From NCBI RefSeq assembly GCF_000374045.1, contig NZ_KB893316.1:1-64000 (forward strand): a stretch of DNA of 64,000 nt, in the 5' to 3' direction. Positions 38,583-42,188 of the stretch are shown in pieces. This DNA comes from Segetibacter koreensis DSM 18137 (lineage in GTDB: Bacteria; Bacteroidota; Bacteroidia; Chitinophagales; Chitinophagaceae). Within the stretch, counting starts at the first letter, position 1; each line of letters opens with the position of its first letter. The position numbers and the translations under genes were made by a program. Under the pieces are notes generated by a model. It did not search any database and was not told the origin of the DNA. It saw only the letters and a program-made list of their open reading frames with translations.

Positions 38583-38609
38583 CATCGTTGCGTCGCACTC
38601 TTGTACGGT
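38583..38609 (-). repeat. Dispersed GTGCGACGCAAC repeat, inverted copy after trpB
   Basis: On the minus strand GTACAAGAGTGCGACGCAAC is read across this tract. It faces the copy at 37288-37311, so trpB is flanked by an inverted pair 1.3 kb apart. It overlaps the 5' edge of the frame of the next gene, which therefore probably starts further downstream. Confidence 0.65.
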
Positions 38610-38644
38610 ATCGTTTTAATCATCTTTTTTTGATAACAAATATT

Positions 38645-39568
38645 GTGGTTCATTATACTTTATCTCCGGCAACTGATGTTGATTTTGGCTTTGCCTATCA
38701 ACTTAAAAAAATAGCGTATAAGGAATATATAGAACAAACGTGGGGCTGGGATGAGGAGTTTCAAATCCAATTTCACAACGAAAACTTTTCAACAGAAAAT
38801 ACAAAAATTATAAAAGTTGAAGAAGAACCAATAGGAACTGTGGATGTTAGGGAAGGAGATAAAAATATTTTTATAAGTGGCTTGTATCTTTTACCTGAAT
38901 TTCAGAATAAAGGAATTGGAAGTTCAATTTTGGAGGCATTGCAAAAGAAAGCAGAAGTAGGTAAAAAAAGAGTTGAACTTGAAGTTTTACGTGTAAATAC
39001 CAAAGCGCAGCAGTTATATAAAAGACTCGGATTTACAATGGATGAAAGAGATGAAACAAAGTTCTTCTTGTATAAAGATTATAGTGTCAGCGAGAGCACG
39101 ATGAGCAATTTAGAAATCATAGGATATTCAGATAAATACCAGGAAGATTTTGCGGCACTAAATAAAGCCTGGCTTCAAAAGTATTTTACTGTTGAACCTA
39201 TAGATGAAAAGATATTTGCAAATCCGGCGGAATATATAATAGGCAATGGAGGCTATATATTTTTTGCAAAATTAGGTAATGCAATTGCAGGAACGTTTGC
39301 TTTAATGAAAATAGGAGATGGAGTTTTTGAATTATCAAAAATGGCGGTTGATGAAAAATTCCAGGGGCAGAAAATTGGAAACAAAATGCTTGAATTTAGC
39401 ATTAAGAAGGCAAAGGAATTGGGTGCGCAAAAAGTGATACTATATTCAAATACAGCTTTAAAACCTGCAATTTATTTATACAAGAAATTTGGTTTTAAAG
39501 AAGTGCCTCTAGGTTCTGTTGAATATAAGAGGGCAAACATAAAAATGGAGATTGAATTAAATAAATAA
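38645..39568 (+). CDS. Tandem two-domain GNAT acetyltransferase inside the trp operon
   Basis: The product has two GNAT domains. The first has ISGLYLLPEFQNKGIGSSILEAL as acetyl-CoA loop; the second, after an internal MSNLEIIGYSD, has LSKMAVDEKFQGQKIGNKMLEF. The first domain alone is about 145 residues. The open frame runs back to TTG 38588, but that part lies in a dispersed repeat, so the GTG at 38645 is preferred, with moderate certainty. The stop is one base before the trpA ATG, so the gene is co-translated with trpA. The acetyl acceptor is unknown. Confidence 0.78.
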   Translation: MVHYTLSPATDVDFGFAYQLKKIAYKEYIEQTWGWDEEFQIQFHNENFSTENTKIIKVEEEPIGTVDVREGDKNIFISGLYLLPEFQNKGIGSSILEALQKKAEVGKKRVELEVLRVNTKAQQLYKRLGFTMDERDETKFFLYKDYSVSESTMSNLEIIGYSDKYQEDFAALNKAWLQKYFTVEPIDEKIFANPAEYIIGNGGYIFFAKLGNAIAGTFALMKIGDGVFELSKMAVDEKFQGQKIGNKMLEFSIKKAKELGAQKVILYSNTALKPAIYLYKKFGFKEVPLGSVEYKRANIKMEIELNK

Positions 39569-40413: not shown

Positions 40414-41016
40414 ATGAATCTCAAAATAGTAAAATACAATGCAGGCAATATTCAATCAGTGCTTTTTGCATTAGAGAGAATTGGCGTGCAGGCAGAGGTT
40501 ACAGATGACATTGAAAAGCTGCGATCTGCTGATAAAGTAATATTTCCCGGAGTTGGCGAAGCAAGCACCGCTATGGAATATTTAAAGGCAAGAAACCTTG
40601 ATAAGGTAATTAAAGAGTTAAAGCAACCTGTTTTGGGCGTTTGTCTTGGCATGCAGCTAATGTGTGCTTATAGCGAAGAGAATGACACACAATGTTTTGG
40701 CATATTTGAAGAAAGGGTATTACGTTTCGATAGTGCAGGTACTGACTTAAAGGTTCCACAGATGGGTTGGAACAATATCTATAATTTAACGTCGCCTTTG
40801 ATGGAGAATGTAGGTGAGAACAGTTACTGTTATTTCGTACACAGTTATTATGCTTCCCTTGGTAATCATACAATTGCCACAACCGATTACACTAAACCTT
40901 TCAGTTCAGCATTAAATAAAAACAATTTTTACGGAGTGCAATTTCACACAGAAAAGAGTGCTGAAGCAGGCGAACAAATTCTTAAAAATTTTATAAACCT
41001 GGAGCCCCGCCCCTAA
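40414..41016 (+). CDS. hisH: Imidazole glycerol phosphate synthase, glutamine amidotransferase subunit
   Basis: The 200-residue class I amidotransferase has IVKYNAGNIQSVLFAL, nucleophile Cys in GVCLGMQLM, and the His-Glu pair in VQFHTEKSAEAG. It supplies ammonia to HisF. The native end is expected near ILKNFINL; the last residues EPRP and the stop come from CCCCGCCCCTAA, the left inverted repeat of the DUF559 cassette. The C-terminus therefore looks rewritten by an insertion. Confidence 0.93.
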   Translation: MNLKIVKYNAGNIQSVLFALERIGVQAEVTDDIEKLRSADKVIFPGVGEASTAMEYLKARNLDKVIKELKQPVLGVCLGMQLMCAYSEENDTQCFGIFEERVLRFDSAGTDLKVPQMGWNNIYNLTSPLMENVGENSYCYFVHSYYASLGNHTIATTDYTKPFSSALNKNNFYGVQFHTEKSAEAGEQILKNFINLEPRP

Positions 41017-41030
41017 AGGCAGGAGGGAGA
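41001..41030 (+). repeat. Left inverted repeat of the DUF559 cassette
   Basis: GAGCCCCGCCCCTAAAGG is an imperfect inverted match of the tract at 41449-41474, whose reverse complement reads AGCCCCCCCGCCCCTGAAGG. The left copy supplies the stop codon and last residues of hisH. Confidence 0.7.
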
Positions 41031-41057
41031 AGTTAAAAAAAATTTAAAACTAAGGAA

Positions 41058-42188
41058 GTGAAAAAAGAGATGTTTTACGGAGCGAGTAATTTGATATTTG
41101 AGAAAGCAGAAGAATTGCGAAATAATGTTACGCCAGCCGAAGATTTATTGTGGAATTATTTGAAGGGAGGACAGTTAGGTGTGAAGTTTAGAAGACAGCA
41201 TCCTGCTGCTTCATATGTACTTGATTTTTATTGCCATGAACTTAAGCTATGTATAGAATTAGATGGTAGTATTCATGCTTTAGAAGAAGTTAAAAGAAGC
41301 GATGCAATACGAGAAGCGCATTTGAAAGAACTAGGAATTACAATTGTACGTTTTGATAATAGAGAATTATTTAAAGATTTACCAGCCGTAATAGAAAAAA
41401 TAAAAATCGCGTTGAATACAGCTAAACAAAAAAGCTCTGGTGTTACCAGCTCCCCTTCAGGGGCGGGGGGGCTTCAAATAATTCCTGCAATTGATATTAT
41501 TGAAGGAAAATGTGTTCGGTTAACGCAAGGAGATTATTCTCAAAAAACAATTTACAACGAGCACCCCTTAGAAGTTGCCAAACAATTTGAAGATGCCGGA
41601 CTAACTCGATTGCATTTAGTTGATTTGGATGGTGCTAAAGCAGGCGCAGTCAAAAACTGGAAAGTGCTTGAATCAATTGCCGCAAAAACAAAATTGACAA
41701 TTGATTTTGGTGGTGGAATAAAAACAGAAAAAGATGTAAACATAGTCTTTGAATCTGGTGCTGCTTATGCCACTGTTGGCAGTATAGCAGTAAAAGATGA
41801 AACAGCGTTTAAAAGCTGGTTGCAAAGATTTGGAGCCGATAAATTTATTTTAGGCGCTGACGTAAAAGATGAAAAAATAGCAATAGCAGGCTGGCTTGAA
41901 ACGACTGATATCTGGATTTACGATTTTATTGAAAAATATATTAATAAAGGAGTTCAACAAATATTTTGCACCGACGTAAGCAAAGACGGAAAGTTGGAAG
42001 GGCCCTCTTTAGATTTATATAAAAACATTATTTCCAAATTTCCTGAGCTTCATTTTATTGCAAGTGGTGGAGTAAGTTCACTAAAAGATGTTGAACAGTT
42101 ACAGAAAATTGGATGTAAGGGAGTCATAATTGGAAAAGCTATTTATGAAAATAAAATATCGTTGTTAGAGTTGAAACAATTTAAATAG
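41058..42188 (+). CDS. hisA: DUF559 endonuclease-like domain fused to HisA (ProFAR isomerase)
   Basis: Residues 1-120 form a DUF559 domain, a very-short-patch-repair/PD-(D/E)xK-like fold (VTPAEDLLWNYLK, FRRQHPAASYVLDFYCHELKLCIELDGSIH, LGITIVRFDNRELF). A linker at about 121-138 (KQKSSGVTSSPSGAGG) is encoded by the right inverted repeat. HisA proper starts at Leu139 (LQIIPAIDIIEGKCVRL) and runs the usual ~238 residues, with catalytic Asp in VDLDGAKAG and in FCTDVSKDG. The expected HisA start Met is Leu (CTT at 41472). Start GTG 41058 has AAGGA before it; ATG 41070 is an alternative. No stop separates the two parts. HisA converts ProFAR to PRFAR. Confidence 0.9.
   Translation: MKKEMFYGASNLIFEKAEELRNNVTPAEDLLWNYLKGGQLGVKFRRQHPAASYVLDFYCHELKLCIELDGSIHALEEVKRSDAIREAHLKELGITIVRFDNRELFKDLPAVIEKIKIALNTAKQKSSGVTSSPSGAGGLQIIPAIDIIEGKCVRLTQGDYSQKTIYNEHPLEVAKQFEDAGLTRLHLVDLDGAKAGAVKNWKVLESIAAKTKLTIDFGGGIKTEKDVNIVFESGAAYATVGSIAVKDETAFKSWLQRFGADKFILGADVKDEKIAIAGWLETTDIWIYDFIEKYINKGVQQIFCTDVSKDGKLEGPSLDLYKNIISKFPELHFIASGGVSSLKDVEQLQKIGCKGVIIGKAIYENKISLLELKQFK
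41449..41474 (-). repeat. Right inverted repeat of the DUF559 cassette
   Basis: GCTCCCCTTCAGGGGCGGGG followed by GGGCTT is the imperfect inverted partner of 41001-41030. It is translated as the linker SSPSGAGG and ends exactly at the position of the lost hisA start codon. Confidence 0.7.

Follow-up and report, generated by a model that had tools for sequence, protein, structure and literature searches.

A DUF559 nuclease cassette fused to HisA in Segetibacter, and a family of probable splicing-free, homing-like elements read in frame with host enzymes

Between hisH and hisF of Segetibacter koreensis DSM 18137 (NCBI RefSeq assembly GCF_000374045.1, contig NZ_KB893316.1, positions 1 to 64,000 of the forward strand; this whole stretch of 64,000 nucleotides is the window below), a DUF559 nuclease domain and the histidine enzyme HisA are read as one protein, which raises the question of how a nuclease came to lie in such a gene and how it stays there. 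A sequence-only reading of the window had proposed that a mobile cassette bracketed by inverted repeats inserted at this junction and survived by giving hisA a new start. Comparison with other genomes makes it probable that the locus belongs to a set of splicing-free, homing-like mobile cassettes that are translated in frame with host enzymes; the event is not specific to HisA, for the family is large and inserts in two modes, at operon junctions and mid-protein.

The fusion in the window

The features of the locus are as follows.

40414–41016, + strand: hisH, whose terminal codons (EPRP) and stop lie within the left repeat
41001–41030, + strand: terminal hairpin/inverted repeat at the left end of the cassette, arm 41005–41019
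41058–42188, + strand: open reading frame (ORF) for DUF559, linker and HisA, 376 amino acids, GTG start, alternative ATG at 41070
41100–41414, + strand: DUF559 nuclease domain of the PD-(D/E)XK / EDxHD type, putative catalytic residues intact
41449–41474, + strand: right terminal hairpin/inverted repeat, arm 41454–41468, translated as the linker SSPSGAGGL, low model confidence
41475–42188, + strand: HisA, lacking its own start codon
42209–42967, + strand: hisF, bare in the window; in Pedobacter and Solitalea cassettes occupy the start region of this gene

The ORF is uninterrupted and, as the sequence-only reading had it, joins DUF559 to HisA: Pfam places DUF559 at residues 15–119 (E 1.2e-27) and His_biosynth at residues 140–367 (E 2.2e-73); the DUF559 (PF04480) match scores 96.4 bits, against a curated cut-off of 20.6. 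The two repeat arms (15 nt, 93% complementary, 434 nt apart) border the cassette, and the left one does encode the C-terminal codons and stop of hisH (...NLEPRP*). Read by eye, the segment between the DUF559 core and HisA in the window offers a single in-frame TTG, at 41412–41414, and neither an ATG nor a GTG in that frame. The proposal that translation of HisA now depends on the cassette start is supported. The fusion reads LQIIP where the bare HisA proteins of two other Segetibacter genomes, G004 and G002, begin with MVIIP and MEIIP. Replacement of the HisA start Met by CTT fits this alignment, but the origin of the CTT is ambiguous: either origin is possible because at the HisF site (below) the host itself supplies CTT, as its second codon, and it is the ATG that is missing.

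An AlphaFold model made with a 63-sequence alignment (a run with 5 sequences modelled DUF559 poorly) has a mean predicted local distance difference test score (pLDDT) of 90.3 and a predicted template modelling score (pTM) of 0.65. DUF559 and HisA are each confident and their relative placement less so, and only residues 1–3 and 130–136 fall below a pLDDT of 50. The HisA part matches solved HisA with a template modelling score of 0.90 by target length in Foldseek, where the 50 matches listed of 1883 were all to HisA, PriA or HisF and none to DUF559.

It could be objected that the fusion is nominal, with translation of HisA beginning inside the ORF or the ORF itself an artefact. The TTG close to where the DUF559 core ends would suit such a view, as would an in-frame GTG in the linker of genome G001 and the native ATGs that are kept at some ArgB and LeuB cassette sites; but the frame is kept without an ATG at the HisA start in five genomes, and an internal start cannot account for the insertions in the middle of LeuRS, IcmF, MetRS and other proteins. 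We regard a nominal fusion as very improbable.

Distribution in Segetibacter

Among ten Segetibacter genomes (G000, the window's own, to G009) the complete HisA fusion is present in G000, G001, G006, G008 and G009, and G002, G003, G004 and G007 have HisA without DUF559; G005 gave no HisA match. Four of the nine genomes with a HisA match thus lack the cassette, so the fusion is not common to all relatives, and recurrence of the same open fusion in five of the ten excludes a sequencing error as its source. Related hairpins border the cassette in all five fusions; the repeat supplies the hisH stop in four of them, while in G008 hisH has its own TAG directly before the repeat. A mobile cassette at the hisH/hisA junction, as first proposed, is borne out by this patchy presence together with the family comparison below. 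At the cassette-free junction of G003 (L013) the hisH stop is followed by what remains of a hairpin, and HisA is extended by 21 residues at its N-terminus. These could be the scar of a lost cassette, a weak reading because the cassette-free G007 also has a short N-terminal HisA extension (by eye).

The repeats are not confined to this locus. A search of the window's own genome allowing 2–3 mismatches found family hairpins at five other places, with none in the reversed control; the strict hairpin motif used below has no match there, being too narrow for a genome whose copies have other stems. In the same genome a family hairpin stands immediately 5′ of an ssb-like gene (L006, G000:C14:3607).

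DUF559 also lies in frame inside LeuRS in G002, G003, G005 and G008, inside IcmF in G002 and MetRS in G003 and G007, and before ArgB in G003. Of the eight genomes in which the state of the LeuRS site could be read (all except G007 and G009), G000 and G004 have it empty by sequence, and G001 and G006 have it empty as judged from how far apart the matches lie. The Segetibacter LeuRS cassettes fall in three places in the DUF559 tree (L029; L019 with L020; L017).

Host enzymes and insertion modes

The survey was extended from Segetibacter to its family, Chitinophagaceae, where 76 of 147 genomes have PF04480 matches. From the genus and family loci together 137 distinct DUF559 copies were extracted, 72 in frame in longer ORFs and 65 in small ORFs. 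The hosts of the former were labelled from motifs downstream of DUF559: LeuRS site A (21), LeuRS site B (6), IcmF (6), ArgB (5), HisA (5), the MetH activation domain (5), chorismate synthase (4), CinA (4), MetRS (4), adenine deaminase (2), the MetH N-terminal domain (2), homoserine kinase (1), nucleotidyl transferase (1), HsdR (1) and others (5), the last including GcpE/IspG (L101) and an M23 peptidase (L086) by Pfam name, with L058, L116 and L141 outside the scan. Pfam was run on one or two examples per label and found the host family beside DUF559 in 20 of 20 proteins, in agreement with the labels; counting HisF, TsaD, LeuB and an epimerase from other Bacteroidota, the Pfam-named host kinds total 18.

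Some copies stand between operon genes (hisH/hisA, hisA/hisF, before argB, thrA/thrB), where the cassette would become the new N-terminus of the downstream enzyme, and others in the middle of large enzymes (LeuRS, MetRS, IcmF, MetH and others). Between fixed LeuRS anchors there are 147–235 residues in 21 filled copies vs 22 and 19 in two empty ones, and two LeuRS proteins (L074, L109) hold two cassettes each. The idea that the cassette survived by donating a start is only a partial account of cassette survival because most in-frame copies are internal and some ArgB and LeuB hosts have kept their own start. Class-wide, 118 of 295 genomes have DUF559 matches at E 1e-15, and among the 150 matches listed 72 lie in open frames of at least 300 residues. 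DUF559 was also matched in 39 plasmid and 2 phage records, each at <60% identity.

We also note tandem hairpin-encoded peptides (LTPSPSPVERGAKTEND..., SSSQGGGDVDAALNSDNT...) in the long ORFs with DUF559 at L058 and L066, and at L134 (G036) a TrpA-like frame with a hairpin-encoded SPPSGGFRG near its N-terminus that adjoins a DUF559 ORF. Elsewhere in the window, an ORF at 38588–39568 between trpB and trpA appears by eye to consist of two tandem acetyltransferase-type halves.

Terminal hairpins

Within 220 nt of the domain, a perfect GC-rich hairpin with 7-nt arms is present on the left of 42, on the right of 35 and on both sides of 26 of the 71 in-frame copies that had sufficient flank, and in 6 of 270 control windows, making such strict hairpins more than 20 times commoner at copy ends than in control DNA. 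The corresponding figures for small-ORF copies are 29, 27 and 18 of 60 (controls 4/231). With 8-nt arms and one mismatch they become 54, 50 and 45 of 71 (controls 34/270) for in-frame copies and 34, 39 and 27 of 60 (controls 19/231) for small-ORF copies. When the left flank is matched to the reverse-complemented right flank, the median score is 14.5 for in-frame copies, vs 8.5 with flanks of other copies and 8.0 with host windows (p 4e-25), and 16.0 vs 8.5 for small-ORF copies (p 6e-18); inverted matching exceeds direct matching in the in-frame set (p 1e-8). The stems vary between copies, yet the two ends of any one copy share theirs (one example has an outer arm CCTCACCCC and then CCCCTCTCC-loop-GGAGAGGGG), as is expected of terminal inverted repeats, which by these comparisons the copy ends are. 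Such repeats are a feature of insertion sequences and miniature inverted-repeat transposable elements; Pfam scans of the fused proteins found no transposase family. Two sequence features recur at the ends, an outer motif CCTCACCC (41/142 in-frame windows vs 3/136 controls) and a CCCC-loop-GGGG hairpin (59/142 vs 3/136).

Hairpins also occur alone. The strict motif is present in 28 of the 147 family genomes (reversed control 0/147), and DUF559 is found in 24 of these 28 vs 52 of the 119 others (p 4.8e-5), an association that counts hairpins belonging to cassettes and so favours DUF559. Some solo hairpins lie in frame in genes whose translations resemble HisD and HisC (both L280), a helicase (L273), a carbamoyltransferase, a type III polyketide synthase and RtcB; L283, L286, L287 and L289 also have in-frame solo hairpins, and other places examined are intergenic.

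These solo copies, which resemble repetitive extragenic palindromic (REP) units, bear on a second alternative, in which the cassettes are moved in trans by a REP-associated tyrosine transposase (RAYT, of the HUH/Y1 type) or another transposase and DUF559 is a passenger or repair helper. RAYT-type genes (PF01797) are indeed present in 82 of the 147 genomes, and 4 of the 28 hairpin-positive genomes (G048, G054, G125 and G129) have no DUF559 match, G048 with 28 and G054 with 10 hairpins. However, the window's own genome has no PF01797 match at E 1e-8, and hairpins track RAYT (20/28 hairpin-positive vs 62/119 other genomes, p 0.09) less than they track DUF559, cassette hairpins included. The flanks of 28 of 30 RAYT loci (two were too short) have the outer motif CCTCACCC in 0 of 56 windows and CCCC-loop-GGGG in 6 of 56, against 41/142 and 59/142 for in-frame DUF559; RAYT was rejected on these grounds as the owner of the hairpin family, and movement in trans in general seems unlikely.

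Filled and empty HisF sites

A GTDB genome scan gave 521 relatives. Of the best 80, which were used here, 37 lie in ORFs of at least 350 residues, and 17 are DUF559–HisF fusions (13 from Pedobacter, 2 from Solitalea and 2 from Bacteroidota metagenome-assembled genomes). In a family sample of 121 genomes, searched with the fused HisF of Pedobacter borealis as query, 104 gave a match: 16 matched the fusion over its full length, one of them with an internal stop; G354, G445 and G536 matched part of the DUF559 region, with stops; and the remainder matched HisF with little or nothing upstream. The query's HisF is 96% identical to the bare HisF of G496 and G529.

An occupied hisA–hisF site reads ...ATATAA, then CCCCCCAGCCCCC...GGGGGCGGGGGG, then CTAAGTAAAAG, and the empty site L378 reads ...CTGTAATGCTTAGTAAAAG, where the hisF ATG is overlapped by the hisA stop. 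The hairpin C-run begins no more than 4 nt after the hisA stop in 15 of the 17 fusions (in the other two the hisA tail was not found in the stretch read), and the right hairpin adjoins hisF codon 2; thus the cassette fills the whole interval between the hisA stop and codon 2, and hisF has lost its ATG. One further locus, L213 of Pedobacter sp. AJM, shares 91% identity with the fused L205 across 2.8 kb, yet its DUF559 ORF ends at 123 amino acids; L213 is perhaps a decaying cassette.

Movement and descent

Two copies in Ilyomonas limi are 97.7% identical over 484 bp and lie at unrelated operon junctions of one genome, MoxR-type ATPase/DUF58 gene and thrA/thrB (named by eye from translations), from which we conclude that the cassette moves. 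Their likeness stops at the right hairpin. In both, the DUF559 stop overlaps an ATG whose frame crosses the hairpin (MNNNSPSTSAATSSPSGAGG) into the downstream gene. By an automated count, 6 of 37 small-ORF copies have a right hairpin that falls within a long ORF downstream; this is an undercount that misses both Ilyomonas copies and was not used.

In a tree of 130 copies with 16 host labels, 25 label changes are needed (minimum 15, shuffled mean 68.8), a pattern that suggests mostly site-faithful inheritance with some jumps. Both DUF559 trees are weakly resolved owing to few columns. In the second, of 139 rows, the starred branches imply that the HisF cassettes arose at least twice. A sister-group relation between HisA and HisF cassettes, with homing to the starts of paralogues, was considered and found no support, the HisA copies lying nearer to ArgB/ThrB copies (support 76) and the HisF copies having these multiple origins. 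Mobility is thus evident from comparison, and the nuclease would be its probable driver.

The nuclease domain

The putative catalytic residues E14, D42, E53, D55, H59 and D68 are retained in 54–55 of 55 internal, 12 of 12 junction and 57–58 of 58 small-ORF copies, a count from which the five long copies labelled "other" were left out. Among four HisA fusions (G009 excluded), the ratio of nonsynonymous to synonymous substitution rates (omega) is 0.03–0.08 for the DUF559 core (4 of 6 pairs computable), 0.73–3.36 for the 20-codon linker and 0.02–0.05 for the HisA part (3 of 6 pairs computable), with synonymous divergence saturated in several pairs. By these ratios the DUF559 core is under purifying selection. 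A DUF559 profile matches PDB entries 3hrl (E 4.3e-28), 3r3p (E 9.9e-5, "Mobile intron protein"), which we take to be I-Bth0305I, and PvuRts1I chains (0.0026); DUF559 presumably belongs, by name, to the EDxHD group. The match to a solved homing nuclease, together with the intact acidic and His residues, is what a Vsr-like or EDxHD homing nuclease would have.

Purifying selection would also be expected if DUF559 were a useful accessory domain, serving Vsr-like mismatch repair or regulation and kept for the benefit of the host, and Caulobacter VsrA, a Vsr-like protein, has a role in the DNA damage response according to the available part of its description (PMC12907096). Unrelated hosts that share no common function, patchiness, terminal inverted repeats and the recent intragenomic duplicate fit a selfish element better, and we consider host benefit quite improbable.

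Eight of the best 80 loci come from other phyla (Microcystis, Poribacteria, Oscillochloris, Parabeggiatoa and others) and have DUF559 in long ORFs that resemble DNA methylases and show intein-like motifs by eye (L218, L220, L231, L236, L240, L264, L265 and L266). Of seven that were scanned, six gave a weak DNA-methylase match below its cut-off, and L231 and L240 gave an intein C-terminal match (intein_Cterm) above its own. These inserts support a homing role for DUF559, though they are no proof for the Bacteroidota cassettes.

Splicing signatures and retention

No Hint or intein domain was found by Pfam in 21 fused proteins (at E 1e-3 for the window protein and E 1e-5 for the others), and on this ground an intein was rejected for these hosts. 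Likewise, seven loci gave no Rfam match to a group I or II intron core at the gathering threshold, and a self-splicing intron was rejected. Because no splicing element was found in the cassettes scanned, DUF559 most likely remains as a tethered domain of the working enzyme.

A model and the evidence against it

The splicing-free, homing-like reading would join in-frame position, terminal repeats, patchiness, movement, intact residues and purifying selection, all seen by sequence comparison. The unit would be about 0.4–0.65 kb, made of a terminal hairpin, the DUF559 reading frame and an inverted terminal hairpin, and its insertion into coding DNA would leave the whole cassette, hairpins included, in frame with the host gene, the hairpin-encoded Pro/Gly/Ser linkers making a tethered nuclease tolerable. 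DUF559 may cut cassette-free alleles or target loops, with repair copying the cassette in; solo hairpins may be leftovers or non-autonomous copies; and location in hard-to-dispense genes would shield the cassette from deletion. A bolder statement has, in our judgement, an even chance of being right: that these are a selfish class of repeat-bounded homing nucleases, intein-like but without splicing, which stay as permanent domains of essential enzymes, use their hairpins both as DNA ends and as linkers, take over start codons, and give rise to nuclease-free hairpins that spread in frame.

Several observations weigh against this picture. The window repeat by itself is not significant, since 54 of 4807 random pairs of 200-nt windows and, among same-geometry pairs, 86 of 4755 score as high; it becomes convincing because related hairpins border the cassette in five Segetibacter genomes and left–right matching is strong over 71 in-frame copies. 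A strict hairpin is absent from the left flank of 29 and the right flank of 36 of those 71. Among small-ORF copies the excess of inverted over direct matching is weak (p 0.03), and their windows often have the hairpin type (53/120) and rarely the outer motif CCTCACCC (3/120). Inspection of the HisF and Ilyomonas sites by eye revealed no target-site duplication, LeuRS insertion points differ by a few codons (by eye) so that strict site specificity is not evident, and of six empty hisA–hisF sites read only L378 has the stop/start overlap, the other five having spacers of about 80–300 nt; what a HisF insertion replaced, overlap or spacer, is therefore uncertain. Same-site copies mostly cluster in the tree, implying much vertical inheritance. 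G048, which has the most strict hairpins of any genome, has no DUF559 match, and G054 also runs counter to a simple hairpin–DUF559 link. Finally, retention in the mature enzyme is deduced from missing splicing signatures, and cleavage and homing by the DUF559 cassette are steps that we infer.

Comparison with known systems

The nearest precedent for unspliced in-frame homing insertion is the ShiLan insertion element of phage DNA methylases (PMC11855218; the articles cited in this section were available in part, and statements about them refer to those parts). Like the cassette, it lies in frame in a conserved gene without a stop or an intein or intron signature, contains a nuclease ORF and has a disjunct distribution, and its authors expect the insert to remain in the protein (PMC11855218). 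The ShiLan nuclease is of the HNH type and out of frame with its host, whereas DUF559 is in the host frame; the ShiLan main text as available has no occurrence of "palindrom" or "inverted repeat", whereas DUF559 cassettes bear terminal repeats; and its hosts are phage methylases (PMC11855218), whereas those of DUF559 are many chromosomal enzymes. Inteins and mobile group I introns, including that of the EDxHD nuclease I-Bth0305I, also place a nuclease in the conserved gene that they interrupt (PMC3943268), but the DUF559 cassettes have terminal hairpins and neither a Hint domain (21 proteins) nor an Rfam match (7 loci).

The solo hairpins look like rickettsial palindromic elements, which insert in frame and are found in many unrelated proteins, as the solo hairpins are. 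We know of no nuclease cassette associated with those elements, and they belong to a different phylum from the cassette hosts. Proteins that contain them have been tallied (PMC2635572). The REP/REPIN-RAYT systems, as far as the available sources describe them, similarly have hairpin units, solo and paired, and one linked gene, but REPs are by name extragenic, RAYT flanks in the genomes surveyed lack the cassette hairpin family, and that family is not linked to a Y1_Tnp gene. Vsr and DUF559 proteins such as Caulobacter VsrA are of the same nuclease family as the cassette. When the ScmA methyltransferase is absent, VsrA is responsible for a DNA damage response, and it is treated as a mismatch-repair nuclease, with no enzyme insertion mentioned in the available part of the text (PMC12907096).

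No description of such cassettes was found in the open-access PMC literature, judged from titles and the starts of abstracts. The distribution of the cassettes fits a homing endonuclease element. Because each known kind compared fails at least one tested defining feature or could be compared only in part, we rate the cassettes, on this open-access basis and with a mechanism that is itself conjectural, as a new kind. Association with self-splicing elements has been presented as what frees homing nucleases to invade conserved genes (PMC3943268, the part available). If our reading is right, a nuclease element can instead live in housekeeping enzymes without any removal step, which would explain why many tRNA synthetases and histidine enzymes of Bacteroidota have an odd fusion to DUF559, would offer a natural experiment on the uptake of new domains by proteins, and would open homing without splicing to direct tests in soil bacteria that are in culture.

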